From: a virus
DNA length: 26,994 bases
Strand: one strand, 5' to 3'
Virus record (IMG/VR): IMGVR_UViG_3300034198_017425
Location: 1 to 26,994 of that record
The position numbers were made by a program, and so were the translations under genes. The notes beneath the pieces were generated by a model, which was not told where the DNA came from, ran no database searches, and saw only the letters and a program-made list of their open reading frames with translations. Positions 1 to 26,994 of the stretch are shown piece after piece (within the stretch, counting starts at the first letter, position 1; every line of letters starts with the position of its first letter).

Positions 1-429
1 GCCCTTCGACTGCCTTGCTACATCAAGCGGAAGGTGCCGAATCATCGCGACCATCGTGGCAACGCAGAGACCTGACCGGGCCACGCCGACAATTCGATTT
101 GTGTTGGCAGGCAGCATCGTCGCCAGGTGTTTTGCATCTTCCATCAGCCGGGCCGTCGTCACGAACTCCGGGACAGGGTTTGCCGCCTTGTTCCACGCGA
201 ACGGGAACAGCCGGTTGAGCGTCCGTTGCCGCCCTTTGCATCCGCCGCAGGGCTTAATGCCGACTGCTGACGTGACTTTCGCGATCACGTCACCGAGGCC
301 GCGCGAGGGCTTCGACGTGTCCCACTCGCCAACGTCCAGAGCGCCCTTTTCGCAGGCCCATTTTATCCCGGCCGTCACCAGAAGGTTTCGCTTGGCGCAC
401 GCTGCACCGATCTCGCACTGGCACGCCAT
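1..429 (-). CDS. Phosphoribosyltransferase-like protein, partial (3' end beyond window)
   Basis: An open frame runs from ATG at 429 to the window edge without a stop (143 codons seen). It starts 3 nt after the stop of the upstream cysteine-rich gene, so it belongs to the same operon. The N-terminal part carries CxC and further cysteines (MACQCEIGAAC) and a PCGGCKGR motif around residues 60-67 that could bind a metal. After a helical stretch comes RIVGVARSGLCVATMVAM, which resembles the first strand, loop and helix of the type I phosphoribosyltransferase fold. The PRPP-binding motif expected further on lies outside the window. In phages such enzymes may act in nucleotide or modification metabolism; the substrate cannot be told. 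Fold assignment is by eye, so the call is moderate; that the frame is a real gene is likely. Confidence 0.6.
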   Translation of the reverse strand, partial: MACQCEIGAACAKRNLLVTAGIKWACEKGALDVGEWDTSKPSRGLGDVIAKVTSAVGIKPCGGCKGRQRTLNRLFPFAWNKAANPVPEFVTTARLMEDAKHLATMLPANTNRIVGVARSGLCVATMVAMIRHLPLDVARQSKG

Positions 430-432
430 TGC

Positions 433-1686
433 CTACGACTCCTCCAGAACGAATTCTTGTATCTGGTACGCGGTCTTGCTGTCTGTTGAGGCAAATGGGT
501 CGATCAGGCACGCGGGGCTAGCCCCTTCTAGCCCAAACACTCCAGAAGCGGCAGACCTGATGTCGAAGAATGTAGGCGAGCAACGGAACAAAGCAGCGTT
601 TGCCGTTGACACTCCGGTGTCTGTCCAACCGGGGTTTCCCGCTTCAACGGCTGAACTAAACCGATACTGAAAATATCGCTCGAATCCAACTCGGCAAAAC
701 AACCGAACCTCTATCGTGTCATCAATAAACTCGCCCATCCCAACCGGGAATGATGTTGATAGCTGCCCCTCAAATGCTTGGCACTCTCCCGCGATCTTGA
801 TCGCCGACTGGCATAGGTCCATACAAAGGAAGCTGGGCGTGAGCGTCACCACACCCAAGGGCCCCGAAACGAGGCCGGAAAACATCGTTGCCGTGATCGC
901 AGTAACAACTCGCCCAGGGCAGAAACACAGGTTCGGCGGCAGGTCACATTCTTCGTGGCATTCGGCACACCGAAGCAACACCGTGTACTTGACCTCGCCC
1001 TCTTCGTCGAGAATGTCGACCTCGTGCGAGAACTCCCGCCGCGTGCAGTTTTCCAGCGTCAACGGGATCACGGCGGACTCTTCGCCATCCACCAACACGA
1101 CCATTTCACAGGTGCCGTCGTACTCGTTCGGGCGAATCAGTGCCCGCACTTCTCGCGTCAGGTTGGGAGCGGTCTGCGTCTGCTCGTTAACTGTCCCGGA
1201 ATACTCCTGCGTGTACTGATTCCAGCAACCCTTGCCCGAGTAGATGTACTCACCTCCGTAAGGCTCGGTGAAGTCCCGGACGATGATGCAGATACATTCG
1301 CACAAGCAATCACAGGTAGTGCATTCGGGTTTGATCTTGTCGGTGCAGGTAAAGGCAACGTCACCTACGGACGTTGGGATTGTCCCAGACAGGGCGCGGC
1401 AATTGATGTCTACCCCGATCTCGTACCGAACTTTTTCGTAACCGTCCTCGTTGCCGATCACGAAACAGCCGTATTCGTTTTCCTCGAACGTGACGGAGAC
1501 GTTGACTTCGCCGTTATCCGAATCGAGCGTTGCCGCGAATTCTTCGTCAATCCAATCGGCTTCCGCGCCGTAGGTCTGGTAGGCTCCCTCAATGCTAAAA
1601 CAGAGTGTCTTGCAGGCGCACGCACAGCAGCCAACAACGCCCTTGCACTCACCGCAGCAGCAGCATTTGTTCCCCTTTGCGGCCAT
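433..1686 (-). CDS. Cysteine-rich distal tail or virion protein, unknown function
   Basis: 417 residues. The ATG follows a clear GGAGTGAGG ribosome site 9 nt after the previous stop. About 33 cysteines are present (8 percent): ten in the first 29 residues, including four in a row, a run of alternating Cys near residue 130 (CTTCDCLCECIC), and CAECHEEC plus LCFC near the middle. No signal peptide or membrane segment is seen. The rest is acidic and rich in short beta-like segments, as in tail-tip proteins. The cysteines could bind metal or form disulfides in the mature particle; the sequence does not decide. Neighbours on both sides also hold CxxC or CC pairs. I recognise no family. A virion role is inferred only from position at the distal end of the tail operon. 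Confidence 0.75.
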   Translation of the reverse strand: MAAKGNKCCCCGECKGVVGCCACACKTLCFSIEGAYQTYGAEADWIDEEFAATLDSDNGEVNVSVTFEENEYGCFVIGNEDGYEKVRYEIGVDINCRALSGTIPTSVGDVAFTCTDKIKPECTTCDCLCECICIIVRDFTEPYGGEYIYSGKGCWNQYTQEYSGTVNEQTQTAPNLTREVRALIRPNEYDGTCEMVVLVDGEESAVIPLTLENCTRREFSHEVDILDEEGEVKYTVLLRCAECHEECDLPPNLCFCPGRVVTAITATMFSGLVSGPLGVVTLTPSFLCMDLCQSAIKIAGECQAFEGQLSTSFPVGMGEFIDDTIEVRLFCRVGFERYFQYRFSSAVEAGNPGWTDTGVSTANAALFRCSPTFFDIRSAASGVFGLEGASPACLIDPFASTDSKTAYQIQEFVLEES

Positions 1687-1695
1687 CTTTGAACC

Positions 1696-2382
1696 TCACT
1701 CCGGCGGACAACAGAGGGAGTGAACAACCCACTTCGGATCTGTCTCGCCTTCAACCTTCATGTACCGCGCGAACCCCTTTCGGCCGACCAGCTCTTCCGC
1801 AGTCTCGTCGAAGAAACAGCCTGTCAAATCGTGTACTGTGATCTTCCCGTTCTCGTCCTCACCCTCTGATGTCGTTTTCGGGTTGTCGCGTGCCAGGATC
1901 GAACACGTTGCCGTCTTGATTTCTCCGTACTCTTCGACCGAGTCAATCTCGAAGGCAACGCCCTCGCCGCCCCCGCCGCCTTCCTTTCCGATCAGACAGT
2001 AGCCCGCCTCTGTGTCGATCCCGCCAAGCACCTTGAATCCTGAGTTGCCTTTTTTCAGGTGGTACTGATTCTCCTCAGGCCCAACGTCATCATTGACCGC
2101 CAAGTCGTCATCACTGCCATCGCTGTACAGCGCGCGGCAGGGAGCGTCATAGGTGCAGGCCCCGAACGCTCTTACCTCAACTGACGTTGGCCCATTGAAC
2201 GCGACATTGCCCACCGTCGCTTCAACGTCAGGCCTGATTGCCCTCCAGACGATCGCCCCGTTGATGAGTTCGGTCCCATCGAACCGGATGACGCCATACG
2301 GCGGGACGGTCTCGGGGCCAATGTTCTTGAACGGCATCCAGCGGCCGCCGCCGACTGCCGCTTTCGGGTCTGTGATGCCCAT
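1696..2382 (-). CDS. Probable virion structural protein, unknown
   Basis: 228 residues, ATG 3 nt after the stop of the hub-like gene, so translation is probably coupled. It has no membrane segment or signal. It is acidic, with a GGGGG linker at about two thirds, strand-like segments before and after, and eight cysteines including a terminal CC (SLCCPPE). The first 40 residues (FKNIGPETVPPYGVIRFDG and following) have the look of small baseplate or fibre-anchoring domains that begin with polar turns around 'VPPYGV'. Lying between a hub-like protein and the cysteine-rich protein, it probably belongs to the tail tip. I cannot name a family. Confidence 0.65.
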   Translation of the reverse strand: MGITDPKAAVGGGRWMPFKNIGPETVPPYGVIRFDGTELINGAIVWRAIRPDVEATVGNVAFNGPTSVEVRAFGACTYDAPCRALYSDGSDDDLAVNDDVGPEENQYHLKKGNSGFKVLGGIDTEAGYCLIGKEGGGGGEGVAFEIDSVEEYGEIKTATCSILARDNPKTTSEGEDENGKITVHDLTGCFFDETAEELVGRKGFARYMKVEGETDPKWVVHSLCCPPE

Positions 2383-2385
2383 AGA

Positions 2386-4050: not shown

Positions 4051-4064
4051 GACTCAACAGCAGC

Positions 4065-5372: not shown

Positions 5373-5386
5373 CAAATCACCTCGCT

Positions 5387-6824: not shown

Positions 6825-6833
6825 TGCTCTTGA

Positions 6834-8867: not shown

Positions 8868-8882
8868 TGCGTTCGCTCCTTT

Positions 8883-9778: not shown

Positions 9779-9784
9779 GCGATT

Positions 9785-9824: not shown

Positions 9825-10709
9825 TCACGCCGTCGAGTCATTCGTGACCACCAGCTCCCGCGTCGTGCTCGTCATGCGTGCGATCCCGTCCAGCGTCAAC
9901 GGGATCTCATCCTTCCCGGCAACGACCGGCGAGTTGTCCGGGAACTGCAGCTTGCCGTACGTGAACGTCACCGAGCGCCCGCCGTTCGTGAACGCGAGAC
10001 TTCCGGCCGACCCGAGCAACGCCTGGTTGTACAGGTCCACTTCGTCACTCGTGAACGGGGTTGTCGCCTTGAACGACACAATCCGATCGGTGGGGCTGAT
10101 ATCCGTTGCCGATTGCGAATTCGCAAATCGGGTCGCGAGCACGTTGTCGATCGCCGTCTCGAAGTCGAAGAACTGGCGAGCCGTCGAAACCAGAGTCAAC
10201 GCCCCCTGGTGGAACACGTATGGCGGATCCGTCGGGGCGGTGATTGACGGGAACGACGTTGCACTCACCGTCTCGGTCTTCCCGACGATGTCCAGCACGA
10301 GCTGAATCAACTGCCCGGCCGACCCGGTGAACGTGGCCTTGCCGACCTTACAGTTGCCGTACACGAATCGCTTGGCGCCGCGGTCGATGAGCACGTCGAA
10401 CTCAGGCAACGTATCCGCCAGGGCGAATGTTGTCCCCGATGCGACCGCCCCCAAGATTCGCGGCAACAGCAGGTCGAGAACCGCCGGAGTCGGATGCAAC
10501 GTGATCTGTCCGCCGATCGCGTACGTGCCCTCGGCTGTCCGTTCGCTCGCGTGCGACCGCGTGCCCCGGATTCCGTTCGTGTCGAGAATCACCCCGGTCT
10601 TTTTGAGGTTCTCCGAAACGATCTCGATGGCCTCGGTGAACGAGCCAACGGCCGTTCCGGTCGCACCCATCGACAATCGAGACGCCCAACCCATTGAGGC
10701 GGCAGGCAT
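9825..10709 (-). CDS. Major tail tube protein
   Basis: 294 residues, with an AGGAG site 8 nt before the ATG at 10709. The protein is strand-rich with a Gly/Ala/Ser start (ASMGWASRLSMGATGTAVG), central ITLHPTPAVLDLLLPRILG and VYGNCKVGKATFTGSAG, and ends in LDGIARMTSTTRELVVTND. Patterns such as 'V..C.V..A.....AGQ.I.L.LD.VGK' are seen in siphophage and related tail tube proteins, where they form the tube beta-barrel. The position, after the tail completion gene and before the chaperone pair, supports the call. A strong hairpin follows the stop. Sheath genes are absent, which argues for a non-contractile tail. Confidence 0.8.
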   Translation of the reverse strand: MPAASMGWASRLSMGATGTAVGSFTEAIEIVSENLKKTGVILDTNGIRGTRSHASERTAEGTYAIGGQITLHPTPAVLDLLLPRILGAVASGTTFALADTLPEFDVLIDRGAKRFVYGNCKVGKATFTGSAGQLIQLVLDIVGKTETVSATSFPSITAPTDPPYVFHQGALTLVSTARQFFDFETAIDNVLATRFANSQSATDISPTDRIVSFKATTPFTSDEVDLYNQALLGSAGSLAFTNGGRSVTFTYGKLQFPDNSPVVAGKDEIPLTLDGIARMTSTTRELVVTNDSTA

Positions 10710-12555: not shown

Positions 12556-12611
12556 GATTCAGGTCCACTGGATGACGGACGGGGAATTGCCGTTGCCGTT
12601 GCTTCGTTGCC

Positions 12612-13016
12612 CTACTCTTCCTGAGGAACCGGCCCCAAATCCTTGATCTTCCGATCCGTCATCCGGGGCGACGGCCACGACTGCTTCGCATCGCAGTACA
12701 TGGCCCAGGCGTCGTTCTCGTTGTCGGCGATCACCACGCGCGGAGCCTCTTCCCCGACACTCACCGAAAACCGATGCTTGCGGGGGGCGGGGCGGCGGTT
12801 GGCCGCGAGCTGTCGCTGGTAGGCGGTCTGGGCAACGATCGTGCGAGCTTCCGGGAGCGGTGAGGCAGCCGGGGGAGCGTCCGGGTGGACTGGGATGCGG
12901 CTGACGTCGTGAACGCCCAGGTTGATCTCGGGGGCGGCCGGAGCCTGGACAACCGGAGTCTGAGGAGCGGGAGCCGCGGGCTTCTGGGGGGCCGGAGCGG
13001 TCTGTTCGGGGGGCAT
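12612..13016 (-). CDS. Hypothetical phage protein with Pro/Ala-rich N-terminus
   Basis: 134 residues from ATG with AAGGTG about 7 nt before it. The first 60 residues are disordered Pro/Ala (PAPQKPAAPAPQTPVVQAP and following); a small folded domain follows (HRFSVSVGEEAPRVVIADN and ENDAWAMYCDAKQSWPSP). The order strand, strand, helix with 'A.NE.DAW..Y' suggests a small alpha/beta fold. A 161-bp gap (13017-13177) separates it from the capsid gene; it holds one GGCAACG word at 13081 and only a weak 5-bp hairpin. Function unknown; perhaps a capsid-associated or connector protein. Confidence 0.6.
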   Translation of the reverse strand: MPPEQTAPAPQKPAAPAPQTPVVQAPAAPEINLGVHDVSRIPVHPDAPPAASPLPEARTIVAQTAYQRQLAANRRPAPRKHRFSVSVGEEAPRVVIADNENDAWAMYCDAKQSWPSPRMTDRKIKDLGPVPQEE

Positions 13017-13177
13017 GTGACACCTTGGAAAAATGTTTGAACGGTGGCGTGGTCTTCAGTGAGTCAGCTTCAAAACATCAGGCAACGAATCCGGGCAGCC
13101 CGAGACAGCCGCCCCGCCATCTTGCGACAGCGGAGCGACTGCTCCCGCGCCACCAGCAGCTTCAATCAGTCACTTCG

Positions 13178-14404
13178 TTACGCAACGGTCGCCTTCGCCA
13201 TCAGGCGCGGCTCGCGAACCACGTACTGACCTCGCTCGCTCGCCTTCCAGCGGAACGGGATGTCCCGCGAGAATTCGAGTTCCGAGTTGGCCGGAGCCTG
13301 GACAACCGCCATCGGCCAGTTTTCCATGTACCGGAACGCCCCCGACGGGTCGCCCATGAAGTAGTCCGTGTCGGTCGCCAGGCGGTCGGCCAGCAGGCGG
13401 CTGGTCAACACGTCGAACGCACCGCCGACGGGGTTCGAACCCCGCGTCTCGATCGGATTGGCGCTCGTCGCGTAACCCGGCGTGACGTGAACGACTTCCG
13501 TTGCCGACTTGATCCGGTTCGCCGTGGTCACGAGACCGCGGGTGACGATCAGCTTCATCGGCCCCTCGATCACGATGGGCTCGCCCGTGTTGGGGTCGCG
13601 CATCGCGTAGAAGAGCTGCATCAGGTTGTCGATGTCGGTCCAGTCCACCAGCGCGTTGCTGGCTTCGAGGTTGTCGAAATCGTGCGTCCCCGAGTTGTTC
13701 CCGTAGGTCGCGATCTGACCGCGGCTCTTGCGGTTGTAGCGGTGACGAGTCGTGTTCTCGTCGATCACGCAGTCGATCGCCCGCTTTTCCTTGTTGAGAC
13801 CGAGCGAGTAACCGACATTGCGGCAACGCTCCAGCACGAGGCCCGTGCGGTCGAAGAACGCGACCTCTTTCGAGACCGGAACGATCAACCCGCGCTTCGT
13901 GGTCTGGGGCGTTTCGATGTAATCTTCGTTCGTCCCGACGATCGGGTATTCACCCAGCTCGTCAACGACTTCGGCCTTGTCACCCAGGTCGGCAACGCCC
14001 GGCAACTTCTCGCCGTTGAACTGGGTCGAGACGGACGGGATCAGGCCCGTAAAGACGAAGTCTTCGGCACGATAGGCCGCCATCGTCTCGGTATAGATGA
14101 TCTGCCCGAAGATGTTGGAGAAGAACGCAGTGTTGACCGCATCGGACTCCATCAGCTTGGTCAGGTTGATGCCCTCGTTGCCGCCGCCGTGCCGAGGGTT
14201 CCACGAATCGAGAATCTCGCGACCGCAGGCGGCCCCGTTCGCGTCCGTAATGAACTCTTCCATGCACTCACGGATCGAGAAATCCTTCGGCTCGATCGCC
14301 TTGGATTCGAGGGCCTCGGTCAAGTCCGTAAAGAACCTGTCCGGGGTCTTGTCCTTCTGCGCGGCTTCTAGCAGTCGCCGCAAGCTCTTCGTCTTCACAG
14401 CCAT
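13178..14404 (-). CDS. Major capsid protein (HK97-type fold expected)
   Basis: 408 residues, with AGAAAGGAC ahead of the ATG at 14404. The N-terminus is helical and charged (LRRLLEAAQKDKTPDRFF). Then come segments seen in capsid proteins of this fold: TAFFSNIFGQIIYTETMAAY, IPSVSTQFNGEKLPG, KRGLIVPVSKEVAFFDRTG, a long spine-like helix region GLVLERCRNVGYSLGLNKEK, and the C-terminal FRYMENWPMAVVQAPANSEL with DIPFRWKASERGQYVVREPR. Size and order after portal, protease-scaffold and decoration protein agree. It will be made in hundreds of copies. The protease gene upstream suggests the scaffold, and maybe the capsid N-terminus, is cleaved on maturation. Confidence 0.85.
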   Translation of the reverse strand: MAVKTKSLRRLLEAAQKDKTPDRFFTDLTEALESKAIEPKDFSIRECMEEFITDANGAACGREILDSWNPRHGGGNEGINLTKLMESDAVNTAFFSNIFGQIIYTETMAAYRAEDFVFTGLIPSVSTQFNGEKLPGVADLGDKAEVVDELGEYPIVGTNEDYIETPQTTKRGLIVPVSKEVAFFDRTGLVLERCRNVGYSLGLNKEKRAIDCVIDENTTRHRYNRKSRGQIATYGNNSGTHDFDNLEASNALVDWTDIDNLMQLFYAMRDPNTGEPIVIEGPMKLIVTRGLVTTANRIKSATEVVHVTPGYATSANPIETRGSNPVGGAFDVLTSRLLADRLATDTDYFMGDPSGAFRYMENWPMAVVQAPANSELEFSRDIPFRWKASERGQYVVREPRLMAKATVA

Positions 14405-14504: not shown

Positions 14505-15224
14505 TTAGCGGTCCTGATAGGCCGCGATGTAATCGACGTTCACGACTTCCGAATTCGCACTACCCGCCTTCACCCCGACGAACGCCATCATTTCCGTGGC
14601 GCTCGTGTAGGTGAGCGAATGCTTCATCACGTGAACGCCGTCGATCCAGAAAGACACCTCGGCCTCGGTGGACGAAACCGGGATCACCTCGATCCGCAGC
14701 GTCTGGTAGGACGCCCCGCCCGCCGTCTGCGCTGACTTGCTCAGCGAGTTCGCGGCGGTCAGGTCGGTCGTCGTCTGGCTCGAACCGAGCGAGCTTTCCA
14801 CCTGCCAACGTGTCCCGCCATCGACCTTGAAGAACACGGCCCCGGAGTAGGACGCTTTCGGCCCCGCCCCATCGTCGAGGATCGAGTTGGCCCCGACGGC
14901 ATCCATGAAGCCGAGACAGACGTTGGCATCGTCCGTGTTCGCTTCCGCGTACTGAATGCGAGCCTCGAACAATAGCGGCTTGTTGTTCGCGAACCTGAAG
15001 ATTTCCTTCGTCGTGAGAAGGTAGGCTTCGTTGTTGTCCGTTGCCCCCGTGGTGAGCACGACGACGCCGCCTGCCGCATCGCTCGAAGCAATCGTGGCAC
15101 TCGCGTCGGCACTCGTGTCGGTGAACAGGTCGCCCGACACGAACGTCTCGAAGTCCTCGAAGAACCCGAACTGCTTCCGGCCGACCGTCAATTCCTTGAG
15201 GTCTTGAAGGAGACTCACTCCCAT
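14505..15224 (-). CDS. Head decoration protein candidate with lectin-like jelly roll
   Basis: 239 residues from ATG at 15224 behind GCGGGGA; an upstream start at 15278 would add 18 residues but has no ribosome site. The body is beta-rich, with FGFFEDFETFVSGDLFTDT, LLFEARIQYAEANTDDANV, WQVESSLGSS, ASYQTLRIEVIPVS and VSFWIDGVHVMKHSLTY, the last ending in FVGVKAGSANSEVVNVDYI. This resembles concanavalin A-like domains ('F.A.I......D..V..GF', 'LRIEV', 'V.FWIDG'). Its place just upstream of the capsid gene points to a decoration protein on the capsid surface. A sugar-binding role is possible but not shown. Confidence 0.65.
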   Translation of the reverse strand: MGVSLLQDLKELTVGRKQFGFFEDFETFVSGDLFTDTSADASATIASSDAAGGVVVLTTGATDNNEAYLLTTKEIFRFANNKPLLFEARIQYAEANTDDANVCLGFMDAVGANSILDDGAGPKASYSGAVFFKVDGGTRWQVESSLGSSQTTTDLTAANSLSKSAQTAGGASYQTLRIEVIPVSSTEAEVSFWIDGVHVMKHSLTYTSATEMMAFVGVKAGSANSEVVNVDYIAAYQDR

Positions 15225-15307
15225 GATTTTCCCCGCTTTCTGTGGGATGGATTTCAGATCTGCAATCAGCCAAGGCAACGAACCCCAGCCCGTCCCGTCT
15301 CAGCGGG

Positions 15308-16483
15308 TTATCGCTTCACGGCAGCCGCGAAACCCTTTGCGTCCGCCGGGTACTTCGCGTCTTCCTTCGATTCGAGCAGGGGACGAGACACGGTCGGGCG
15401 GTTGCCCAGGCCGAAGCGGCTTTCGTTGCCCTTGATCCCCGTTCCGCTCGTCGCTCCGGCCACCAGAGCCGCCCCGGCCTTCGCCTTGAACGACTCAATC
15501 AGTTCCTTGCGTTCGGAACTGTCTTCGGCCCTCGCCACCGCCTTGATCTGCGACTCGGTCGGCTTGGCGATGCCCGCGGCTTCCAGAAGCTCGGCCGCCA
15601 CGGCTCGCTTGGCCTTGACGCTCTCTTCCATCGGGTTGCCGCTGGCCCCCGATTCACCGGCCCCGCTGGGCTTGCTCTCGCCCGAGGTCTCCCCGCCGCC
15701 GTTGAGCTTTTCGTAGGCCTTGAGGATGTCCTTGATCTTGGTGAGGGTGGCCTTCGTATCGAGCTTGTCATCGTCGAACGCGGCAACGACCATCTGCCGG
15801 AACGCCGCCTTGACCTGATCTTCGCTCTCGCCGCCCGAGGCTTCGGCGGGCATCTCCGCCATCGCCATCGGAGCCATCGCGTCTTCTTCGAGCAGCTTCA
15901 GCAGCATGGCCCGGCCGGGGTTGGCCTTGTCGATCTGTTCCACGTGTTCCCGCAACTTCTTCATCGGTTCCTCGCTCTCGAAAAGCCCCGTGTTCGTTGC
16001 GGGGGTCTGAACAATGTCAACCGAGCGCACGGACTCGATCGACTCAACAACACGCTTGCCGCCCTTCGTCCCCATCCGCCCTTCGGCATTGTGGGACAGG
16101 CCAAATCGCTTCGGGTTTCGCTCCGCCGCCTCGAAGAGCAGGCCCGCGAGCGGATGCTCTTTCAGGATGTTCAAGTCGCCCACAACGGCCTTCTGCTCCG
16201 GGATGTACTTCACACCGGACAGCCAGCCGATCCCGTCGCCAACTCCGCGCTCTACCGAGGCGTTCTTGCGATCCGGGTGATTGACGTTGACGCCCAAGCC
16301 CTCATAGATCGTGGCCGCCTGCTGCATCGCCTGTTCGCTGTACTCCCGTCCGTTCTTCGACGAGGCGCCCAGAATGCGAACACCGGCAACGACTCCGGCT
16401 TCGCGGTTCACCTTGGGCGCATCGCTGTAGACGGTCTCGATCAGGGTTTCCCGCGTCGATGTCTTGGGGGCGGCCGTGGCCAT
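15308..16483 (-). CDS. Prohead protease fused to scaffold
   Basis: 391 residues. The ATG lies just after AAAGGCAACGAAC, so the GGCAACG word overlaps the ribosome site. The N-terminal 170 residues look like a phage maturation protease: SKNGREY at 42-48, NVNHPDR with His69, RFGLSHNAEG with Ser130 and His131, then SVRSVDIVQTPATNTGLFE. His69 and Ser130 are the likely catalytic pair of this herpes/T4/HK97-type serine protease group; the exact clan is not certain. From about 172 the protein is Glu/Lys/Ala coil with a Gly/Ser linker near 295-315, as expected of a scaffold that fills the prohead and is then degraded by its own protease part. Confidence 0.8.
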   Translation of the reverse strand: MATAAPKTSTRETLIETVYSDAPKVNREAGVVAGVRILGASSKNGREYSEQAMQQAATIYEGLGVNVNHPDRKNASVERGVGDGIGWLSGVKYIPEQKAVVGDLNILKEHPLAGLLFEAAERNPKRFGLSHNAEGRMGTKGGKRVVESIESVRSVDIVQTPATNTGLFESEEPMKKLREHVEQIDKANPGRAMLLKLLEEDAMAPMAMAEMPAEASGGESEDQVKAAFRQMVVAAFDDDKLDTKATLTKIKDILKAYEKLNGGGETSGESKPSGAGESGASGNPMEESVKAKRAVAAELLEAAGIAKPTESQIKAVARAEDSSERKELIESFKAKAGAALVAGATSGTGIKGNESRFGLGNRPTVSRPLLESKEDAKYPADAKGFAAAVKR

Positions 16484-16518
16484 GTTCGTTGCCTTTATGC
16501 CTGGTGGCGGATCTGTCT

Positions 16519-17367
16519 TTATCGAGTCGCCGCGAGTTCTGGGGGACTGGCCCCGGCTCCCGCGCCAACCTGCTCAAATGCGTATTCAATCCAGCAACGG
16601 CAACGCGGATGAGCGGGCGGCCCATCCGGGAAAAACCGTGACCAGTTGCTTCGCGTCCGTCCGTTCAGCGGAGCACAGATCGGGCAAACCCGCTGATCTT
16701 CCGCCGTGAACCACCTGTCCTCTTCGTTGCGTCCGACCGTTGCATCGACCGCGATCTCACCGGCCGCGCTCGCTGCCCCTGTCGTCTCCGTCACTGCGAT
16801 GTTCTCGACTCGACTCGGCCCGAAGGCTTGGTCGATGATTTCGTCTGGGTCTGGTTGAACTGTCGGTTGCGGGGTGGTCGGTTGCGTTGCGGGCTGAATC
16901 ACCGGCAACGACCCCGGCTGTTCTATTCCCGTCCCGCTTCCCCCCGGTTGTGCTGCTGGCTGTCCTGTCCCGCCCGTCACCTCGCCCGGCAATCCGATCT
17001 TCTCGATGATCTCTTGGCTTCTCTCGGTGTACTGCTGGGCGAACTCCGTTGCCCTTGCATCAGCCCACCGCCTCAACTGCTGTTCGATCTGAAGCGTTGC
17101 CTGTCCGATGTCGCGTCCGGACTGAGCAACCGCTGGTTCAAGCCGTGCCGTGTACTGACTCGACCCCGCCATCAGGATCAGCAGCAGCAACGCCGCAGCT
17201 TCTTCTTTTGTTTCCTGCTTCACTCGCTCCCAGAATTCCGCCGGAATGTTTCGTGGGTCCGGTGGCGTTCCAAGTAACTGCTTCAGTTCGCGCTTGTGCC
17301 TCGCGGAGAGTCTGGCGAACCGCTCCGCGAATCGTTCTTCGTGTCTGGTGCGTCCGACGAGGTCCAC
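16519..17367 (-). CDS. Minor head protein, Mu gpF-like
   Basis: 282 residues from GTG at 17367, 18 nt after the portal stop and in the same frame as it. The N-terminal half is helical with a hydrophobic stretch (EEAAALLLLILMAGS); a Pro/Thr/Gln-rich linker spans roughly 130-175. The C-terminal 65 residues hold the family signature: WFTAEDQRVCPICAPLNG near 218-235 and FPDGPPAHPRCRCWIEY near 246-262, with four Cys and one His that could bind metal. Mu gpF-like proteins lie next to the portal, are packaged in few copies and are needed for head morphogenesis; in some phages the same C-terminal domain carries toxin or ejected functions. Confidence 0.88.
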   Translation of the reverse strand: MDLVGRTRHEERFAERFARLSARHKRELKQLLGTPPDPRNIPAEFWERVKQETKEEAAALLLLILMAGSSQYTARLEPAVAQSGRDIGQATLQIEQQLRRWADARATEFAQQYTERSQEIIEKIGLPGEVTGGTGQPAAQPGGSGTGIEQPGSLPVIQPATQPTTPQPTVQPDPDEIIDQAFGPSRVENIAVTETTGAASAAGEIAVDATVGRNEEDRWFTAEDQRVCPICAPLNGRTRSNWSRFFPDGPPAHPRCRCWIEYAFEQVGAGAGASPPELAATR

Positions 17368-17385: not shown

Positions 17386-19029
17386 TTACGGGTAGGACTC
17401 GAAAACCGACTCGACCGTTTGGCGGAGAGCATCCGACGGGCTGCCAAACCCGCCGAATCCGCTGCCACCAAACCCACCGAACCCACCAGCAACCACCGCA
17501 GGCTTCGCCCCGAGCTTCTTCTCCTCGTCCAAATCGAGCCCCAGCAACGTCGCCCCGGTCTTCGGAGAGAGCACGCCCATATCCATCTGGGCCTTCACGG
17601 ATGCCGTCAGCTTGTCGATGTCGCGGGTGGCAACGGCAGGCGGGTCAACCTTGACCTCGAACAGCCGCCGGATCGACTCCCAGGACTCGCCTTGGCCCGC
17701 GTCGTTTACTCCGTAAATGTTCGCTTCGTACCCGAGCTTCAGGGCCTTCAGGACGGCATCCTTGAACGCGGCCGCGTAGAAGTTCTGGTCAGCCTCGCGT
17801 GCCTTGACGAACGGGGATTCGGCAACGAGCGTCGAACTGAAGTTCGCGTTTGAGGCATCCCCGGAAATCATGTACTCGGGAAACACCCAGCGAATGCCGA
17901 TCCGCCGCAGAATGAACGAGGCAACCTCAACGAAGCCCGCGTTGCGTTCGGCCCCCATCGGCCCCGGCTTGTAGAGCTTGCCGGGCGAAGGGCGAAGAAC
18001 CGTCCCCTTGTCGAACCGCTGCGTCCTGATCGTGCGTTGGCCGCTCTGCCCCGGCCGCGTGACCTGCCCTTCAGCCAACGCCCCGGCCAGCCCTTGGACC
18101 TGCCCTTGTGTCGTTCCGGCCGGGTGTTCCTCGATCCACGCGATCGCCGCCTGGAGGGATGCCCCCGTGACCATGTTCCCGGCCAGCTTCGCTTCCGCCC
18201 GCATGTCTTCGAGGACCGGGTAGAAGTCGCTCACGCCCCGCTTGGCGTTGCGGTACGTGTTCCGCTTCAACCAGATCATCCGGTCGGCCGGAACGTAGTC
18301 CCAATCGACTCCCGCCCCGTCATAGACCACGTGGAAGCCAAGCGGGTTGGCGGGCTGACGGTGTTTCGTGTGAACGCCGAACGTCCAAGAGGACTGGTAT
18401 TCCTCGCTGACACCGAGCCAGTCTTCCAGCGGCCGGGCGTTGGCCGGTTCGACGATCTGGGCAGGCTCGATCGACAGGGCAGAGAACTTGCCGCCCTGGA
18501 ACTCGATCGCCGCCGCCGCCTCGCCGTCTTCGCGCGACCGCTGATGCAGCTCGCGGGCGAAGGTGTCCCGCAGCCCTAGGGACTCAACGATCAGGTCAAC
18601 CAGAGCCTGAAGCCGAGGGCCGAGTTCCGCCCCGATCTCCTGCCCCTTGGTAGGCTGTACCGTGAAGTCGAAGCCCGCCTTCCCGAGCACGTAGTTGGCG
18701 AGCGACTCGTTCGCCCCTATCGCCACCCCGTCGAATTGGGACAGCAGTCGGCAGTGCCCGCGGATCAGCCGCAAGTCTTCCTCAGTTTCGTAAACCGGCA
18801 GGAACTTCCCGTCCTGTCGATCCTCGATCCGATCCCGGCCGCCCCAGCCGCCGATCCCAGCGAACATCGCGTCTTCGCGAATGCGTTCACGCGGATCAAT
18901 CCAGTCGCCATGCTGCTCGGTGAGAGCCTGCGCATCGCGGGTCGCGAAGAACGTGGCGGCGGCGGTGAGGCTTGCGGGAGTCATGATGGAGGCATCTTCG
19001 CCGCCGTCACGCCAAAGCCAACTCCGCAT
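17386..19029 (-). CDS. Portal protein
   Basis: 547 residues. ATG at 19029 overlaps the previous gene by 23 nt; a second ATG at 18984 (MTPASLTAAATFF) is possible, since neither has a strong ribosome site. The sequence follows the plan of phage portals: an alpha/beta wing region (LRLIRGHCRLLSQFDGVAIG, ANYVLGKAGFDFTVQPT), VDWDYVPADRMIWLKRNTYR with GVSDFYPVLEDMRAEAKL (a typical portal motif), a long stem helix region and a crown. The C-terminus carries an FG-rich tail (GGFGGFGGSGFGGFG), expected to be disordered. It forms the 12-fold ring through which DNA is packed by the terminase and later leaves. Confidence 0.88.
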   Translation of the reverse strand: MRSWLWRDGGEDASIMTPASLTAAATFFATRDAQALTEQHGDWIDPRERIREDAMFAGIGGWGGRDRIEDRQDGKFLPVYETEEDLRLIRGHCRLLSQFDGVAIGANESLANYVLGKAGFDFTVQPTKGQEIGAELGPRLQALVDLIVESLGLRDTFARELHQRSREDGEAAAAIEFQGGKFSALSIEPAQIVEPANARPLEDWLGVSEEYQSSWTFGVHTKHRQPANPLGFHVVYDGAGVDWDYVPADRMIWLKRNTYRNAKRGVSDFYPVLEDMRAEAKLAGNMVTGASLQAAIAWIEEHPAGTTQGQVQGLAGALAEGQVTRPGQSGQRTIRTQRFDKGTVLRPSPGKLYKPGPMGAERNAGFVEVASFILRRIGIRWVFPEYMISGDASNANFSSTLVAESPFVKAREADQNFYAAAFKDAVLKALKLGYEANIYGVNDAGQGESWESIRRLFEVKVDPPAVATRDIDKLTASVKAQMDMGVLSPKTGATLLGLDLDEEKKLGAKPAVVAGGFGGFGGSGFGGFGSPSDALRQTVESVFESYP

Positions 19030-19306
19030 TTACAGATAGCTGTAAGCTAGTTTGGGAATCGTCGAATTGACCCTCGAAACGACTCTCGAACTCATCGCGA
19101 AACACTCTGGATTGTTTCGCGGATTGTTTGCATCCCTTCACCGGGCAGTAGCAATACCGGACTGTTTCCGTTGTCGATCCCGCGAGCATCGGAACCGCGT
19201 GAACCGGGCATACCGGTTGCGGCTGAATCCGAAACTTTCGCTTCGGTTTCGGCTGATCAGGCTCCGGCATTCCGGGGAAGAGTAACTGCATCCTGCGATT
19301 CCTCAT
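19007..19306 (-). CDS. Small Cys-containing (zinc-finger-like) phage protein
   Basis: 99 residues, ATG overlapping the large terminase stop as ATGA, and ending 23 nt inside the portal gene. A basic N-terminus (MRNRRMQLLF, then KPKRKFRIQPQP) precedes CPVHAVPM and, 17 residues later, YCYCPVKGCKQSAK. The pattern C-x2-H ... C-x-C-x4-C could hold a zinc ion, as in small nucleic acid-binding proteins. The remainder is acidic. Placed between terminase and portal it may help in packaging, but no family is recognised. The tight overlaps on both sides support that it is expressed. Confidence 0.7.
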   Translation of the reverse strand: MRNRRMQLLFPGMPEPDQPKPKRKFRIQPQPVCPVHAVPMLAGSTTETVRYCYCPVKGCKQSAKQSRVFRDEFESRFEGQFDDSQTSLQLSVNAELALA

Positions 19307-20733
19307 ACCACAGCGTAAGAAATCTCGGTGAGTTCGTTGCCGTATTCATCCACGTTCACCGCGTTCGCGCCCGTCGGGATCTGCGACATTTGATCCAGCA
19401 AGCGAATCGCCATCTCCAGCGCGTCAGGTCCATCATCGTGATGCGCGAGGGGCCACTCCCGGAGCTGCGAAAGCAGCAACTTACAACCCGGAGTGTTGCG
19501 AAACCGAATCAATCCGCGTGAGAAATACGGGTCGAGTCGCCCAATTCTCACGTTCTTGTTCACGCGATTTTCGATCAGATGCAACGGCAACGGCGGAATA
19601 TGCCCCGATCGACACTGATTGTCGAATTCTGTCGCCAAAAGTTCCTGGAATTGATTCGACTCCAACAACACTCCATCAGACGGATTGTGACGATAGAACG
19701 TGATGGAATCGGCAACGATCTGCGACGGCGGGCGCCGCTCAATGTCGGCGTCAACGTACAGCAGCCCCCCGCACAACCCGACGAACACGATGGCGGAATA
19801 GTCCCCTTTTTTCGCGTCTTTCCCCTTCGACGGGTCGATCGCGATCGAAGCAAGCTCGAATCGATCAGGCCAGCGATCCGCCCAGATGTTTGACCAGTAC
19901 GATTCCGGCCATTCGGATTGAGTCGCGAGCGTGGGTTTCTGCTGGTAGAGGCAGCTCCACTTGTAGGGCCCAACGGCCTGCTCAATCTGTCGCAGCCGGT
20001 TGATGTCGTACCGCTCCGGCCAGAGGGCTTCCTCGTTGTCGTTGATCGCGGGGAAGTGGACAACATCCCACTGCTCCGCGAACTCGTCCCCGGCCGCCTG
20101 AGCCTTCCGCAGCCGCCCAATCAAGTCGTCCTCGTGCCATCGCGTCTGCAGCACGATCACTGACGCCCCAGGTTCGAGCCGGGTATAGGCGGTGGATTGC
20201 CACCAGTCCCAGACGCTGTCTCGGATCGTGGGGCTCATCGCCTCTTCCCAGTTCTTGAACGGGTCATCGACGATCAGCAGGTCGGCCCCCTTTCCCGTGA
20301 TCGCCCCGCCTGCCCCGGCTGTCTGCATCCCGCCTTCGCGGCCCTCAATATCCCAGCGGTCTGCCGCTGACGATCTGGGATTGACCTTCACCGCGAAGAT
20401 GTCGTTGCCGAATTCCTCTGTCAGTGTCCGCGCCTTCCGGCCCCACTGAGCGGCGAACCCCGCTTCATAGGACGTAAGGATCACGCGGCGATCCGGGAAC
20501 GTGCCCAGGTAGTGCGACGGCAGGTATTTGCTGAGGTATTCCGACTTCCCGTGCCGAGGCGGCATCTGAACCAGCAGCCGGCCGTTGGGCTTGTAGGCCG
20601 TCCGAATCACCGCCCGATCAAGGGCCGCCAGGTGCCTCGCCATCTTCCACCGGCCCCGGCTCACCGTCCGCGCGTACAGGGCTGGCGTTGCCGTCTGGCG
20701 GACCAAGTCGCAGGAAGTCGAGGTAACGATCAT
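19303..20733 (-). CDS. terL: Terminase large subunit (packaging ATPase and nuclease)
   Basis: 476 residues. The N-terminal ATPase has a Walker A-like PPRHGKSEY at 58-66, followed by RRVILTSYEAGFAAQWGRKAR, Walker B LLIVDDP at 152-158 and the coupling-like VLQTRWHEDDLIGRL at about 194-208. The C-terminal RNase H-type nuclease shows IAIDPSKG (Asp300), VLLESN (Glu358) and HHDDGPDAL (Asp433, Asp434, Asp437). It cuts the concatemer and drives DNA through the portal. Start is uncertain: 20733 keeps a family-like N-terminus (PALYARTVSRGRWKMARH) but overlaps the small terminase by 116 nt; ATG at 20643 would cut the overlap to 26 nt. Confidence 0.93.
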   Translation of the reverse strand: MIVTSTSCDLVRQTATPALYARTVSRGRWKMARHLAALDRAVIRTAYKPNGRLLVQMPPRHGKSEYLSKYLPSHYLGTFPDRRVILTSYEAGFAAQWGRKARTLTEEFGNDIFAVKVNPRSSAADRWDIEGREGGMQTAGAGGAITGKGADLLIVDDPFKNWEEAMSPTIRDSVWDWWQSTAYTRLEPGASVIVLQTRWHEDDLIGRLRKAQAAGDEFAEQWDVVHFPAINDNEEALWPERYDINRLRQIEQAVGPYKWSCLYQQKPTLATQSEWPESYWSNIWADRWPDRFELASIAIDPSKGKDAKKGDYSAIVFVGLCGGLLYVDADIERRPPSQIVADSITFYRHNPSDGVLLESNQFQELLATEFDNQCRSGHIPPLPLHLIENRVNKNVRIGRLDPYFSRGLIRFRNTPGCKLLLSQLREWPLAHHDDGPDALEMAIRLLDQMSQIPTGANAVNVDEYGNELTEISYAVV

Positions 20734-22553: not shown

Positions 22554-22598
22554 GGAAGCAGGCGGGCCTTTCGTTGCCTTTGATGTGCCGGGCTTTGA

Positions 22599-23027: not shown

Positions 23028-23050
23028 GATTGATCTACCCTCTCAGTGAA

Positions 23051-24307: not shown

Positions 24308-24340
24308 GATCTACCTTGTGGGGCGGAACGGCGAAACGGG

Positions 24341-24610: not shown

Positions 24611-24644
24611 GATGTTCTTTCTCTAAACAATGACCGTGGCCAGG

Positions 24645-25247
24645 TTACAGCCCCAACGGAAACCCAAGAGACGGTCGAGAGTGTTTCGAACCGCTCGCCT
24701 CGGTGTAGGTAACCCTTGCTTCGATGATGTCAATTTGCGGCTGCGACTCAAACTCCCCGTCGATGTTGACGATCGAAATCGCAACCCCGAATCCGGAATT
24801 CTTTATCTCTGATGGGGTCCACGTCGCTCCCCCGAGACTCGACACAGAACCGAAGGTTACGTTTCCAAACGAAAACGGAAAATTCTGGGGGCTTGATGCA
24901 AGGTTGCTCCCCACGTTTGCGCCGTTAGTTGTCGTCTTTCTGCCCCAAACCTGATCAACGCGAATGATCGCATCTGATTGGCTTCGAGCGCTGATTCTCC
25001 ATTCAATTCCATTGATCGTTGCCGAGTCTGGGACCAGCGACATATCGGGAGCATGAGCTACTAGCCATCGAGTTCGAGCGCCAGCAGTCAGCGAACCCAA
25101 TCCCACCTGAGCAGATCCACCACCCACGGCCGACAAGCACGCCGTGAGAGTCGATGTAGTTGCGGTCCAGTCCTGAGAAGCTCCACTCGGAGCACTGACG
25201 CTATCGCTCCGTGCCGACGTGACTGGCTTCCATCCCGTGTCAGGCAT
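24645..25247 (-). CDS. Virion surface or tail protein, beta-rich
   Basis: 200 residues; the start overlaps the upstream stop by 8 nt. It has the composition of a small structural protein (Ser, Thr, Gly, Val rich). Segments ARTRWLVAHAPDMSLVPDSA, TINGIEWRISARSQSDAIIR and IEARVTYTEASGS give a jelly-roll-like pattern seen in phage proteins that include 'I.GI...I..........V.......G........IN..FGV.I.' (here NSGFGVAISIVNIDGE). No signal peptide. Together with the downstream spike base protein it likely sits in the adsorption apparatus. Confidence 0.7.
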   Translation of the reverse strand: MPDTGWKPVTSARSDSVSAPSGASQDWTATTSTLTACLSAVGGGSAQVGLGSLTAGARTRWLVAHAPDMSLVPDSATINGIEWRISARSQSDAIIRVDQVWGRKTTTNGANVGSNLASSPQNFPFSFGNVTFGSVSSLGGATWTPSEIKNSGFGVAISIVNIDGEFESQPQIDIIEARVTYTEASGSKHSRPSLGFPLGL

Positions 25248-25578
25248 GATAACCGCCTTCCGTCGCTCGCTTCGCCTGCATCTCGTCCCACAGGAACGCG
25301 ATCAGCCGCGCCACCATCACCCCGATCTGCCACCAGAGCCACGGGTTTGCGAAGAACGAAACCTTCTGACTTTCCCGCACCTGATTGGCGATCCGCCGTT
25401 CCATCTCTCGCCGCGTGCGGGGCGATTGCCCTGCGTATCCCACCGTCGTCAGCTCGTGATGGATGAGAGTCGAGGCGAGCGGAACGAACCGTTGCACGCT
25501 CGTGCCCAGGTCCATCACATGCCCTTGACAGGCGTGAACTCGCTCCGAAATCTCAGCGGTGGCATCGACTGTGTTCAT
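25240..25578 (-). CDS. Small membrane protein, holin/spanin candidate
   Basis: 112 residues, start overlapping the upstream stop as ATGA. The N-terminal 80 residues are helical and charged (RTRREMERRIANQVRESQKV), followed by one aromatic-rich hydrophobic stretch (FFANPWLWWQIGVMVARLIAFLW) and a basic tail (QAKRATEGGYHA). One membrane segment plus a charged tail would fit a class III-like holin or an inner-membrane spanin. The neighbouring lipoprotein and peptidase support a lysis or envelope role. No family is recognised and the role is an inference. Confidence 0.65.
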   Translation of the reverse strand: MNTVDATAEISERVHACQGHVMDLGTSVQRFVPLASTLIHHELTTVGYAGQSPRTRREMERRIANQVRESQKVSFFANPWLWWQIGVMVARLIAFLWDEMQAKRATEGGYHA

Positions 25579-25886
25579 TCCGTCCTCGCCAGTTCGTTGC
25601 CGTGCTCATCCCGAACCACGATTCCACCCGACAGCCGCAACACCACTTCGCGGACGTTCTTCGTTGCCCACGCGAACACGAGCTTGAGAAACGGGTTCGC
25701 GCTGGCCTTCGTCACCCGCAGATAGGGCGGTGCGAACGTCAGCCGCGTGCCCTCGATGTCCTCGTCGACCGTCATGACCAGATCGTCAGGCAGAGACACG
25801 CGAAACCCGCCCGCGGTGATCTCGCTCACGTTCGCGGGGGGCGTGATCGTCCACCGGCCCTGCATTTGTCGGAGTAGCTCGATCAT
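25575..25886 (-). CDS. Small beta-rich phage protein, unknown
   Basis: 103 residues from ATG at 25886, which overlaps the upstream stop as ATGA; the longer open frame to 25976 is a shadow of the lipoprotein gene. The protein starts MIELLRQMQGRWTITPPANV and continues with alternating strands (FRVSLPDDLVMTVDEDIEGT, RLTFAPPYLRVTKASANPFL), then EVVLRLSGGIVVRDEHGNEL. It looks like a compact beta fold without membrane segment or cysteine. The ATGA overlaps on both sides tie it to the membrane protein and the lipoprotein. Function unknown. Confidence 0.65.
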   Translation of the reverse strand: MIELLRQMQGRWTITPPANVSEITAGGFRVSLPDDLVMTVDEDIEGTRLTFAPPYLRVTKASANPFLKLVFAWATKNVREVVLRLSGGIVVRDEHGNELARTE

Positions 25887-26422
25887 CGCCCCGACTCCGT
25901 TCTGGCGATGCGGGCTTCGAGTTCTTCGCGGGTGATGAAGCCGCGGAAGTTCCACCTGGTCCCGCGTGCGGTCCATTCGATGTACGGGATTCGAGCTTCA
26001 CCATCGACGATCGATGCAGCCGGGAACGAGTGATCCCGCCACGTCCAAGCGATTCGGCGGCGCCCGTTGCCTTTCTTCATCTCGCTCATCAGGCGATCAC
26101 AGGGCGGGCATCGCGGGCCGAACCAGACATCGACCGCAATCTCCGGCAGCTCGGTGCGCTCGGGGATCGGGAACGGCTGTATGGGCACGATGGGACCGGC
26201 GGCCGGCTCGGGGAGCGGGGTTGGAGAGGGGCCGGGCTTCGAAGGTCCTGGCGATGGGGGCTTCGGGACTGGCGTTGCCTTCTGATCGGCAGGTGAGGCC
26301 TCGAAAGTAAACTTGATCGACGGCTCTTCGATCGCTGGCTCGCGACCGAACGAGGCGGGCAGGTCCGCACAGCCGGACAGGCACAGAGCAACGACAGCGA
26401 TAACGGCGAGGTGAGTGTTCAT
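25883..26422 (-). CDS. Thioredoxin-like lipoprotein
   Basis: 179 residues from ATG at 26422, which overlaps the upstream stop (ATGA). An upstream in-frame start at 26443 is less likely because the internal ATG starts a proper lipoprotein signal (MNTHLAVIAVVALCLSGC, lipid Cys at 18). A long Pro-rich linker (about 50-98) spaces the domain from the membrane. Then VWFGPRCPPCDRL holds CPPC at 105-108, and IPYIEW supplies the cis-proline expected in thioredoxin folds. It should act outside the cytoplasmic membrane in thiol exchange, possibly on the disulfides of phage or host envelope proteins. Lipoproteins with Pro-rich linkers also occur as outer spanins, but the Trx domain favours a redox role. 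Confidence 0.78.
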   Translation of the reverse strand: MNTHLAVIAVVALCLSGCADLPASFGREPAIEEPSIKFTFEASPADQKATPVPKPPSPGPSKPGPSPTPLPEPAAGPIVPIQPFPIPERTELPEIAVDVWFGPRCPPCDRLMSEMKKGNGRRRIAWTWRDHSFPAASIVDGEARIPYIEWTARGTRWNFRGFITREELEARIARTESGR

Positions 26423-26994
26423 CCGAACGAAACCTCCGTCCAAGAGACCGGCCGCGGCGTCACGTCCGCCATGTCACTGATCCCCATCCAGCCGAACGGC
26501 GAGTTTCGGATCTGGTAGTCGAGCACATGCGGAGCGGTCAGGATTGCCCCGCTCGAACCCCACTGCGGGCCGTGCGAGTTGTAAATGTCGTACCACCGCT
26601 CGCCGTTCCTCGTGACCCATGTGCCGGTCGCGAGAGCATGGCCACCGAGCGAGCCGCCGCCGGGAATCTGATCGAGTTCCGCCCGGCCTCGCAGGCCGTC
26701 CCAGCCGGTCAGCCAGTGAATGCCGAACACGACAGCACCACCGCCAGAGGTGCAGAAGCGATCGAGGTCCGCATAGGACTTGATTGGGGTGATCGACCGC
26801 ACCCGGAATGGACTGGCAGCCTCTCTGGCCTGTTGCTCATTCGGAACCCCAGGCTGATACCCACCCTGGTAGTAGGGGACCAGTTCCTCGGGGGCGAATC
26901 CGATCCTGTTGGCCACCAGAGCGGCCCCGCTGATCGTTGCCCCTGCGTCTGTTCGCGGGTCGCTGCCGTCGAGTTGTTTCGCCCAGGCGTAGGA
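26419..26994 (-). CDS. Papain-like cysteine peptidase, partial (5' end beyond window)
   Basis: The frame is open to the right edge; 191 residues are visible and no start is needed inside. Features of the C1/C1-like papain fold: SYAWAKQLDGSDPRTDAGAT and ISGAALVANRIG as the helical part after the active Cys (Cys not in the window), SYADLDRFCTSG, GGHALATGTWVTRNGERWYD with the catalytic His in GGHA, and YNSHGPQWGSSG in place of the usual NSWG..WG, with the catalytic Asn. The protein may process a virion protein, degrade host surface material or act in lysis; no peptidoglycan-binding module is visible. It heads the ATGA-coupled row that leads into the lipoprotein gene. Confidence 0.78.
   Translation of the reverse strand, partial: SYAWAKQLDGSDPRTDAGATISGAALVANRIGFAPEELVPYYQGGYQPGVPNEQQAREAASPFRVRSITPIKSYADLDRFCTSGGGAVVFGIHWLTGWDGLRGRAELDQIPGGGSLGGHALATGTWVTRNGERWYDIYNSHGPQWGSSGAILTAPHVLDYQIRNSPFGWMGISDMADVTPRPVSWTEVSFG

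Follow-up and report, generated by a model that had tools for sequence, protein, structure and literature searches.

Why should a single 7-bp word, GGCAACG, be scattered through 27 kb of viral DNA? We asked this of the IMG/VR virus record IMGVR_UViG_3300034198_017425, positions 1 to 26,994; the window below means this whole stretch of 26,994 bp. The original prediction, made from the letters of the window, had counted about 80 copies and called the word over-represented. The window holds 84 copies (3.11/kb), compared with 21.3 expected from a third-order Markov model, an expectation that is itself raised by the 4-mers of GGCAACG. With a z of 13.6, the word tops all 7-mers.

1..26994, both strands (33 +, 51 -): 84 dispersed GGCAACG copies, each recorded with its context

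The window is 100% identical to bases 37-27030, reversed, of the longer IMG/VR contig 3300032213_002526 (46,555 bp), here called G001. The same 7-mer count on the full contig gave 132 copies (81 +, 51 -; 2.83/kb) against 33.5 expected, rank 1 of 6884 7-mers. The copies are dispersed in both orientations, as had been claimed. They are evenly distributed along G001, in all parts of the genome (variance/mean 0.84). The distance between copies is that of random points, with a mean of 354 bp and a coefficient of variation of 0.998 versus 0.988 in simulation; this random-like variation ruled out a regular spacing. The earlier reader knew no description of the word, and a full-text search of PubMed Central (PMC) turned up no account of GGCAACG or of private phage words among the matches listed (subscription journals lie mostly outside this collection). 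Four papers contain the word or its complement as whole words; judging by their titles, they concern other subjects.

Codon effects and preference at the DNA level

We called 58 genes on G001 with our own script and counted 120 coding copies, 72 in sense and 48 in antisense. This could be a by-product of how codons pair, of amino-acid composition, of GC content or of avoiding a neighbouring word. Because GGC, AAC and ACG are preferred codons, the expectation in sense phase 0 is indeed high (10.7 for 29 found). Synonymous shuffles of the G001 genes contradict this explanation. They gave a mean of 23.4 copies, and the highest of 300 shuffles had 36; when the first base of the next codon was also fixed, the mean was 28.6 and the highest of 300 was 43. 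Shuffling the codon order gave a mean of 13.1 (highest of 200, 23).

In a synonymous-occupancy test, presence of the word was scored at the places where the amino acids permit GGCAACG and compared with codon use outside the word. The word was present at 117 of 304 attainable places, with 20.8 expected. It was realised at 29 of 37, 3 of 6 and 37 of 119 places in the sense phases (odds ratios (ORs) 8.6, 6.2 and 13.2) and at 2 of 4, 8 of 22 and 38 of 116 places in the antisense phases (ORs 23, 7.6 and 15.3), the ORs for the phases with 6 and 4 places having wide intervals. A single log-odds shift of 2.57 (OR about 13) fits all phases, with an OR of 11.6 for + copies and 15.0 for - copies. Among 210 anagrams, GGCAACG has the highest ratio of realised to expected copies (5.6), and the next (3.6) overlaps GGCAACG.

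Avoidance of a neighbouring word was rejected as the cause, since no one-base neighbour lacks more than about 10 copies whereas the excess of GGCAACG is about 92. RTX or Gly-Asn protein repeats, which account for local high counts in other contigs (e.g. L167), were rejected as well; here the copies occupy six phases. A codon, amino-acid or dinucleotide artefact is ruled out by the Markov model, the shuffles and the occupancy test, and we give the by-product explanation practically no weight. The word is, as first proposed, not a simple codon effect: 120 copies in sense and antisense phases stand against 23-29 in the shuffles, and codon and dinucleotide use do not explain the count on G001. Nor was the word common in the other genomes counted below, which are of mixed GC content and carry at most about 0.62/kb.

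The 5,284 bp that lie outside called genes contain 13 copies versus 1.05 expected. When ORFs (open reading frames) of at least 100 aa on the main coding strand were also masked, 4 copies were left in 2,701 bp versus 0.50; with ORFs of at least 60 aa masked, 3 copies were left in 1,505 bp versus 0.28. The claim that copies also lie in gaps between genes holds for the called genes and becomes weaker under the stricter masks. Because the noncoding count depends on gene calls, as the following copies illustrate, the case for a DNA-level force rests mainly on the antisense phases.

13081..13087, +: copy in a gap between called genes; only the opposite-strand long ORF 13025..14371 (+) also covers it
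12591..12611, -: two copies (12591-12597 and 12605-12611) just outside a called gene; an alternative longer ORF, 12559..13023, would cover them
15274..15280, +: copy in a gap between called genes; ORF 14505..15278 (other start) would partly cover it
16487..16493, -: copy just upstream of a called gene; ORF 16302..16625 would cover it

The ORs in six phases, the presence on both strands and the noncoding excess support a force at the DNA level. GGCAACG is a dispersed non-palindromic element (its complement, CGTTGCC, differs) of one phage lineage, favoured at the DNA level. It is best read as an asymmetric recognition signal in DNA, dispersed and weakly selected.

Shape of the element

One-base variants are clearly enriched only at the first base, where AGCAACG has 28 copies versus 9.6 expected and TGCAACG 19 versus 8.0; CGCAACG (21 versus 20.3) is not enriched. 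Most other one-base variants are near or under expectation. These expectations come from the shuffle, which itself lowers near-miss counts.

The flanks of the word are rich in A. At -6 to -1 and +7 to +9 on the word's strand, offsets picked after an initial look at the flanks, A is 1.63x and T 0.83x, compared with 1.04x and 0.90x in the farther flanks. At 1890 anagram control sites, flank A is 1.11x. The excess of A holds for sense and antisense copies, for noncoding ones and for both genome halves. The fraction of GGCAACG followed by A is 0.42 in G001 versus about 0.17-0.33 in 43 dense or related genomes. Neither these flanks, nor the similar OR across phases and strands, nor the other phages with different words described below had been foreseen in the original prediction.

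Accessibility of the word's strand was rejected as a cause. The unpaired fraction is 0.517 for the word core, 0.500 for its complement and 0.479 for 500 anagram sites, a small difference that is not strand-specific. An overall strand polarity over G001 was rejected from the similar ORs of + and - copies given above. As a post hoc observation, - copies are scarce in bases 1-4000 and 42000-46555 of G001, with 1 of 20 attainable places occupied versus 6.5 predicted.

Conservation and turnover of the copies

A relative, G002 (IMG/VR 3300033067_001103, 13,660 bp), aligns with G001 over 11.5 kb at 93.5% identity and keeps the enrichment. The well-aligned part contains 36 copies in G001 and 38 in G002; 30 are common to both, 6 are found only in G001 and 8 only in G002. 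Copies are conserved in 60 of 74 cases, compared with 7774 of 11415 7-mer windows and 864 of 1280 anagram copies. This pattern fits weak selection at many sites and could also fit biased conversion.

Under biased mutation or conversion, a sequence-specific mismatch correction would drive near-words to GGCAACG, like very-short-patch repair or Elhai's model of HIP1, the dispersed word of cyanobacteria. Six of the 15 listed differences between G001 and G002 change the word at two bases, and a 549-aa G001 protein (L016:3059-4708) has a MutS domain I at its C-terminus. A stretch like MutS_I (39% over 77 aa) in a 3275-aa ORF (L412:11646-20000 into L413) of a second phage, G1038, is a thin lead. However, losses of GGCAACG are also rarer than those of control words, and A-rich flanks of 6-9 nt are not predicted. 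No marking DNA methyltransferase was recognised in the Pfam and PHROG scans, which cover roughly two thirds of the 58 called genes; one 193-aa protein has a PHROG match named DNA methyltransferase, but its Pfam match is Methyltransf_24. We regard biased conversion as improbable.

The comparison was extended to more distant relatives found with the terminase. It and other structural genes lie in the window:

19303..20733, -: terminase large subunit (phrog_38, E 3.9e-96; Terminase_6N), used to find relatives
17386..19029, -: portal protein (phrog_21, E 1.6e-28; Phage_portal_2)
13178..14404, -: major capsid protein (Phage_capsid_4, E 2.8e-13)
9825..10709, -: minor tail protein (phrog_290, E 5.6e-24)

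Terminase relatives of 37-52% identity show no enrichment (1 copy in 4.9 kb, 2 in 7.0 kb and 12 in 43.8 kb). Alignment of six integrases, the last match being weak, gave 40 further viral contigs, with 0-0.84 copies/kb in the stretches examined.

Viral sequences were also searched for clustered copies, which gave at least 120 stretches and then 107 and 22. Several short clustered loci have 2-8 copies/kb, and the highest of 19 other whole contigs has 1.10/kb (G008). Among the 22 of 127 clustered viral loci listed, the highest density is 2.5/kb (4 copies in 1.6 kb), followed by 2.24/kb. This search for word-rich viruses is low-powered because clusters are expected in only a minority of G001-like contigs.

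Phage genes and probable host

Judged by its genes, G001 is a tailed temperate phage. Its recombination and nuclease genes comprise an integrase, a RecT-type annealing protein, parts of a RecD2-like helicase and an ERCC4 nuclease. It also encodes an 850-aa zinc-finger/TOPRIM primase fused to a P4/D5-type helicase. A PrimPol of the archaeo-eukaryotic primase (AEP) type, as in NrS-1, was considered and rejected, the G001 primase being of TOPRIM type.

Integrase matches were found in 8 of 199 sampled Planctomycetota genomes, with 30-47% identity for the best match per genome. All 8 belong to one order (170 genomes), to which only 10 of the 199 sampled genomes belong. Two of them also carry a relative of the primase N-terminus (36-39%), at distances of about 6 and 15 kb from the integrase. 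Because relatives of the integrase and the primase sit there, the host is probably a planctomycete of that order or near it.

A tRNA-like sequence at L015:9285-9355 (-) adjoins the integrase, L015:9372-10667 (-), and scores 21.6 bits versus a gathering score of 29. By eye it is the 5' half of a tRNA-Arg(TCT) and a likely attP. A host search with this half was uninformative, with 1 of 149 genomes within one mismatch. A complete tRNA-Met lies at L015:12311-12382.

G001 avoids palindromic 6-mers (413 versus 731 expected), and GCGC is halved. CTCGAG, GAGCTC, CAGCTG, GGATCC and ACGCGT occur once each versus 13.7-19.5 expected. This avoidance suggests restriction pressure. Within genes, AGGAG (24 versus 67.0) and CCTCC (25 versus 90.5) are depleted, as if internal ribosome-binding-like sequences were avoided.

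Survey of host genomes

The word might be host-wide, like HIP1 or the DNA-uptake sequences (DUS), with a role in uptake, repair or methylation, and the phage would then match an unsampled host. The well-known words at roughly the density of GGCAACG are host words, and the whole phage genome carries GGCAACG evenly. However, the highest densities were 0.60/kb in 38 diverse genomes, about 0.62/kb in 392 Planctomycetota, about 0.54/kb in 145 Verrucomicrobiota and about 0.49/kb in 299 Pseudomonadota. These surveys cover 871 distinct genomes, few of them from other phyla. Genome sizes were rounded to 0.1 Mb, top densities were read from tables by eye, and phylum and order follow the centre genome. 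The density of G001 is about 4.5x that of any of the approximately 870 counted genomes.

In none of the 170 genomes of the probable host order does the sequence GGCAACGA exceed about 0.18/kb, compared with 1.18/kb in G001. GGCAACG ranks 702 of 7954, 5800 of 8178 and 7136 of 8157 by z in stretches of 400, 200 and 200 kb from three genomes of that order, and flank A around the word is 0.97, 1.02 and 0.92.

We also scanned 84,980 genomes, one per species, for three alternating nearby copies of GGCAACGA. By our estimate, a 4-Mb genome at a density like that of G001 would give about 1.6 such stretches. The scan found 42, and the 38 genomes behind them have 0.1-0.6 copies of GGCAACG per kb, none being word-rich; four loci of one Lachnospiraceae metagenome-assembled genome (MAG) that was already represented were omitted from this count. 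That MAG has alternating GGCAACGA copies in five loci (L148, L158, L159, L171 and L176), probably a repeat family.

The viral contigs of the same integrase type, without enrichment in the stretches examined, also speak against a host-wide word, which we consider unlikely. The original prediction had offered either long co-evolution with a host that carries the word or a phage role. Long co-evolution finds no support, as the word is sparse in the counted genomes and ordinary in the stretches of the host order; a phage role stands as an option.

Other phages with words of their own

G1038 (3300037882_001881, 68,783 bp; L412-L415) has the same integrase type and a different word. CAGGG occurs there in 619 copies (9.0/kb), on both strands and contig-wide. 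There are 560 coding copies versus 209.3 expected, with ORs of 6.6-10.5 in five phases and 2.0 in one. A further 59 copies lie in 7.1 kb outside called genes, a raw count given with no null. The 3' context of CAGGG is non-random, most strongly at +5, +6, +9, +14 and +15, with weaker deviations beyond: not G at +5, C at +6, G at +7/+8, A at +9, T at +14 and C at +15. G1038 CAGGG is a second clear case of a private dispersed word. The contig encodes an ERF-type annealing protein, a DEAD helicase and a weak ParB-like match; of its 73 ORFs, 17 were scanned with Pfam and 10 with PHROGs.

We compared the largest z of 5- to 7-mers among 150 viral loci of at least 10 kb, a non-random sample mostly chosen for GGCAACG clusters. 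In 144 other loci the median was 4.65 and the 95th percentile 6.5, whereas the parts of G001 and G002 gave 9.1-12.2, the G1038 part 12.5, and L382 and L253 both 8.8. L382 has 19 coding copies of CAACCGG versus 3.4 expected, and L253 has 36 of AGTCAG versus 9.5, both on both strands and in most phases. These are possible further private words; L253 and L382, like L408, are parts of contigs.

In the Salinibacter phage M1EM-1 (L330), CCCAGG has 152 copies and ORs of 4.0-9.9 in six phases. It is weaker in fold, with 128 coding copies versus 60.8. CTCAG has 4 copies versus 62.7 expected, and the CCCAGG enrichment is perhaps partly a side effect of this avoidance. In the first 40 kb each of the Salinibacter phages M8CC-19, M8CRM-1 and M31CR41-2, CCCAG is absent versus 39-46 expected; some other CCAG-containing 5-mers are also absent or nearly so. 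On the plasmid pSR35 of another Salinibacter strain, CCCAGG is ordinary (14 versus 17.9). The Salinibacter pattern looks like strain-specific restriction plus modification. If M1EM-1 shows the same phenomenon as G001, CCCAGG would be private to a phage within one host species.

Other kinds of repeated or missing words were seen in this material. In the Arthrobacter phage DrSierra (L331), the strongest 7-mers, GTTTACA (27 copies) and GTGTAAA (26) versus 1.4-1.6 expected, are probably operator-type repeats; 12 of the 27 GTTTACA copies lie outside genes. L381, a phage with the same integrase type, has dispersed short tandem arrays of the 7-base unit CCAAGAA. GCGC-containing 5-mers are absent or nearly so in L389, L394, L401 and L410/G1039 (same integrase type), and CCAGG is absent in many other viral loci.

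The words could be sites of a modification or defence system, each read by a one-strand adenine methyltransferase (Type III, BREX (bacteriophage exclusion) or type IIL-like), which a protected phage would accumulate, for example as a decoy. The words of such systems often carry adenine on one strand only. This is true of GGCAACG, CAGGG, CAACCGG and CCCAGG, but not of AGTCAG; T-free words are, however, common in GC-rich DNA. M1EM-1 has a gene annotated as a DNA modification methylase, and the three other Salinibacter phages lack CCCAG, although their avoidance extends to the other CCAG-containing words. In G001 no matching methyltransferase was recognised within the scanned genes. None of the 64-156 viral sequences expected to hold at least 4 copies lacked GGCAACG, GCAACG, CAGGG, AACCGG or AGTCAG, so nothing shows GGCAACG or the words of G1038, L382 and L253 as restriction targets. 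We rate a modification or defence word as quite improbable.

Candidate readers of the word

We infer that some protein reads GGCAACG. The word would be a site recognised by an enzyme which phage DNA encounters in infected cells. Weak selection per site would keep it, the log-odds of 2.57 corresponding to a scaled selection coefficient of about 2.6, and sites would turn over at mutation-selection balance. The least certain step is the reader, which may be a Chi-like sensor, that is, a host end-resecting helicase-nuclease of RecBCD or AddAB type. Dense sites in both orientations would then turn degradation from phage DNA ends into recombination or protection.

A short asymmetric word, the RecT-type protein of G001 and the ERF-type protein of G1038 are consistent with a Chi-like role. 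According to the available text of PMC3784561, lambdoid phages without a RecBCD inhibitor over-represent Chi, with a median ratio of observed to expected counts (O/E) of 2.5-3.1. We rank the Chi-like role first because lambdoid phages over-represent Chi and each of the two word-rich phages with good support encodes an annealing recombinase. Hosts with unlike Chi sites would also explain why the words vary from phage to phage.

Several observations weigh against a Chi-like role or against the reading of a selected signal as a whole. The conservation excess of GGCAACG between G001 and G002 is modest. The copies are even along the genome and unpolarised overall, unlike Chi between origin and cos. 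Their 2.8/kb compares with a Chi density of 0.2/kb in lambdoid phages without recombinases, as given in the part of PMC3784561 available to us, and CAGGG at 9/kb in G1038 is very dense for Chi. In the stretches of three genomes of the inferred host order, the O/E of GGCAACG is about 1.25, 0.87 and 0.77; unlike Chi in E. coli, the word is not over-represented there. Finally, M8CC-19 and M31CR41-2 lack the CCCAGG of M1EM-1 and pSR35 shows no enrichment of it, which would not be expected of a shared host Chi if M1EM-1 is the same phenomenon. The Chi-like role is narrowly our first choice, a tentative one, and a phage-encoded reader is almost as likely.

Such a phage reader would be a replication, packaging or condensation protein that binds GGCAACG or starts synthesis there on either strand, for instance the primase-helicase of G001. 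The word would then differ between phage lineages because the reader does. Only one phage lineage shows the enrichment, which is not a feature of the sampled host group; phages with the same integrase type carry different words; and G001 has its own primase-helicase. A mean spacing of 354 bp on both strands, or about 700 bp per strand, would suit priming. M1EM-1, with a distant relative of the G001 primase (26.6%), shows enriched 6-mers (CCCAGG), but this enrichment may partly stem from the CTCAG avoidance, and DrSierra, with another distant primase relative, has probable operator sets as its strongest 7-mers.

No replication gene common to the word-rich phages was found among the scanned G1038 ORFs, and tblastn with the G001 primase gave no match in G1038. 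GGCAACG counts are ordinary in G1040, even though it encodes a primase of 42% identity over 595 aa and a RecD2-like helicase of 41% identity. Zinc-finger primases usually read about 3 nt, which counts against the primase as the reader of a 7-bp word. A phage-encoded reader is possible rather than probable.

More generally, such words may be private addresses of phages, lineage-specific asymmetric words placed at several to about 13x over expectation wherever the coding sequence permits, which a phage protein would read and which would not depend on a host word. Two independent cases would be GGCAACG and, with its 3' context, G1038 CAGGG; CAACCGG, AGTCAG and CCCAGG are weaker candidates. We find this possible, and hold it with marginally less confidence than either reader considered above.

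Comparison with known systems

Dispersed words are known mainly as host features; G001 suggests that a signal at the level of DNA can shape a whole phage genome. The system lends itself to measurement, with more than 100 sites under weak selection, an effect that can be quantified at each site, a close relative in which turnover can be followed and a second phage with a second word. It would become directly testable what little-known hosts such as planctomycetes check in phage DNA, and the synonymous-occupancy test is a simple screen for such signals in viruses of bacteria.

The DUS and uptake signal sequences (USS) of Neisseriaceae and Pasteurellaceae are asymmetric, occur in both orientations at many weakly selected sites and have biased flanks. 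GGCAACG resembles them in all these respects. Unlike DUS, which are host-genome words at about 1/kb, it is phage-borne and denser, with no matching host genome among those counted. Phage operator arrays, such as the stoperators of mycobacteriophages, have tens of sites, mostly between genes. GGCAACG is likewise an asymmetric repeated site specific to a phage lineage, but it has 132 copies, mostly inside genes.

In primase systems, strand-specific sites are needed on both strands (PMC8718748), which GGCAACG could provide. The recognition sites of NrS-1 PrimPol are TTTGGTTA and GTG; the available text of that paper describes no genome-wide enrichment on the scale of GGCAACG, and the G001 enzyme is of TOPRIM type, not AEP.

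Like HIP1 and the alternative HIPs (highly iterated palindromes) of cyanobacteria, GGCAACG is dispersed at about 1/kb or more and has a sharp core with a tolerant end base (PMC4390886). In the accessible part of that source, HIP occurs about once per 1000 nt, and more often in one strain. HIPs are described there as palindromic, host-wide and linked to a DNA methyltransferase, whereas GGCAACG is non-palindromic and was found enriched only in one phage lineage.

GGCAACG is like Chi and Chi-like sites of RecBCD and AddAB in being a short asymmetric word over-represented in a temperate phage (PMC3784561, as far as its available text goes). It differs in strength and layout, with about 13-fold odds and an even, unpolarised distribution, compared with the Chi values from that source given above. 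Chi-like words differ between host groups, as the words described here differ between phages.

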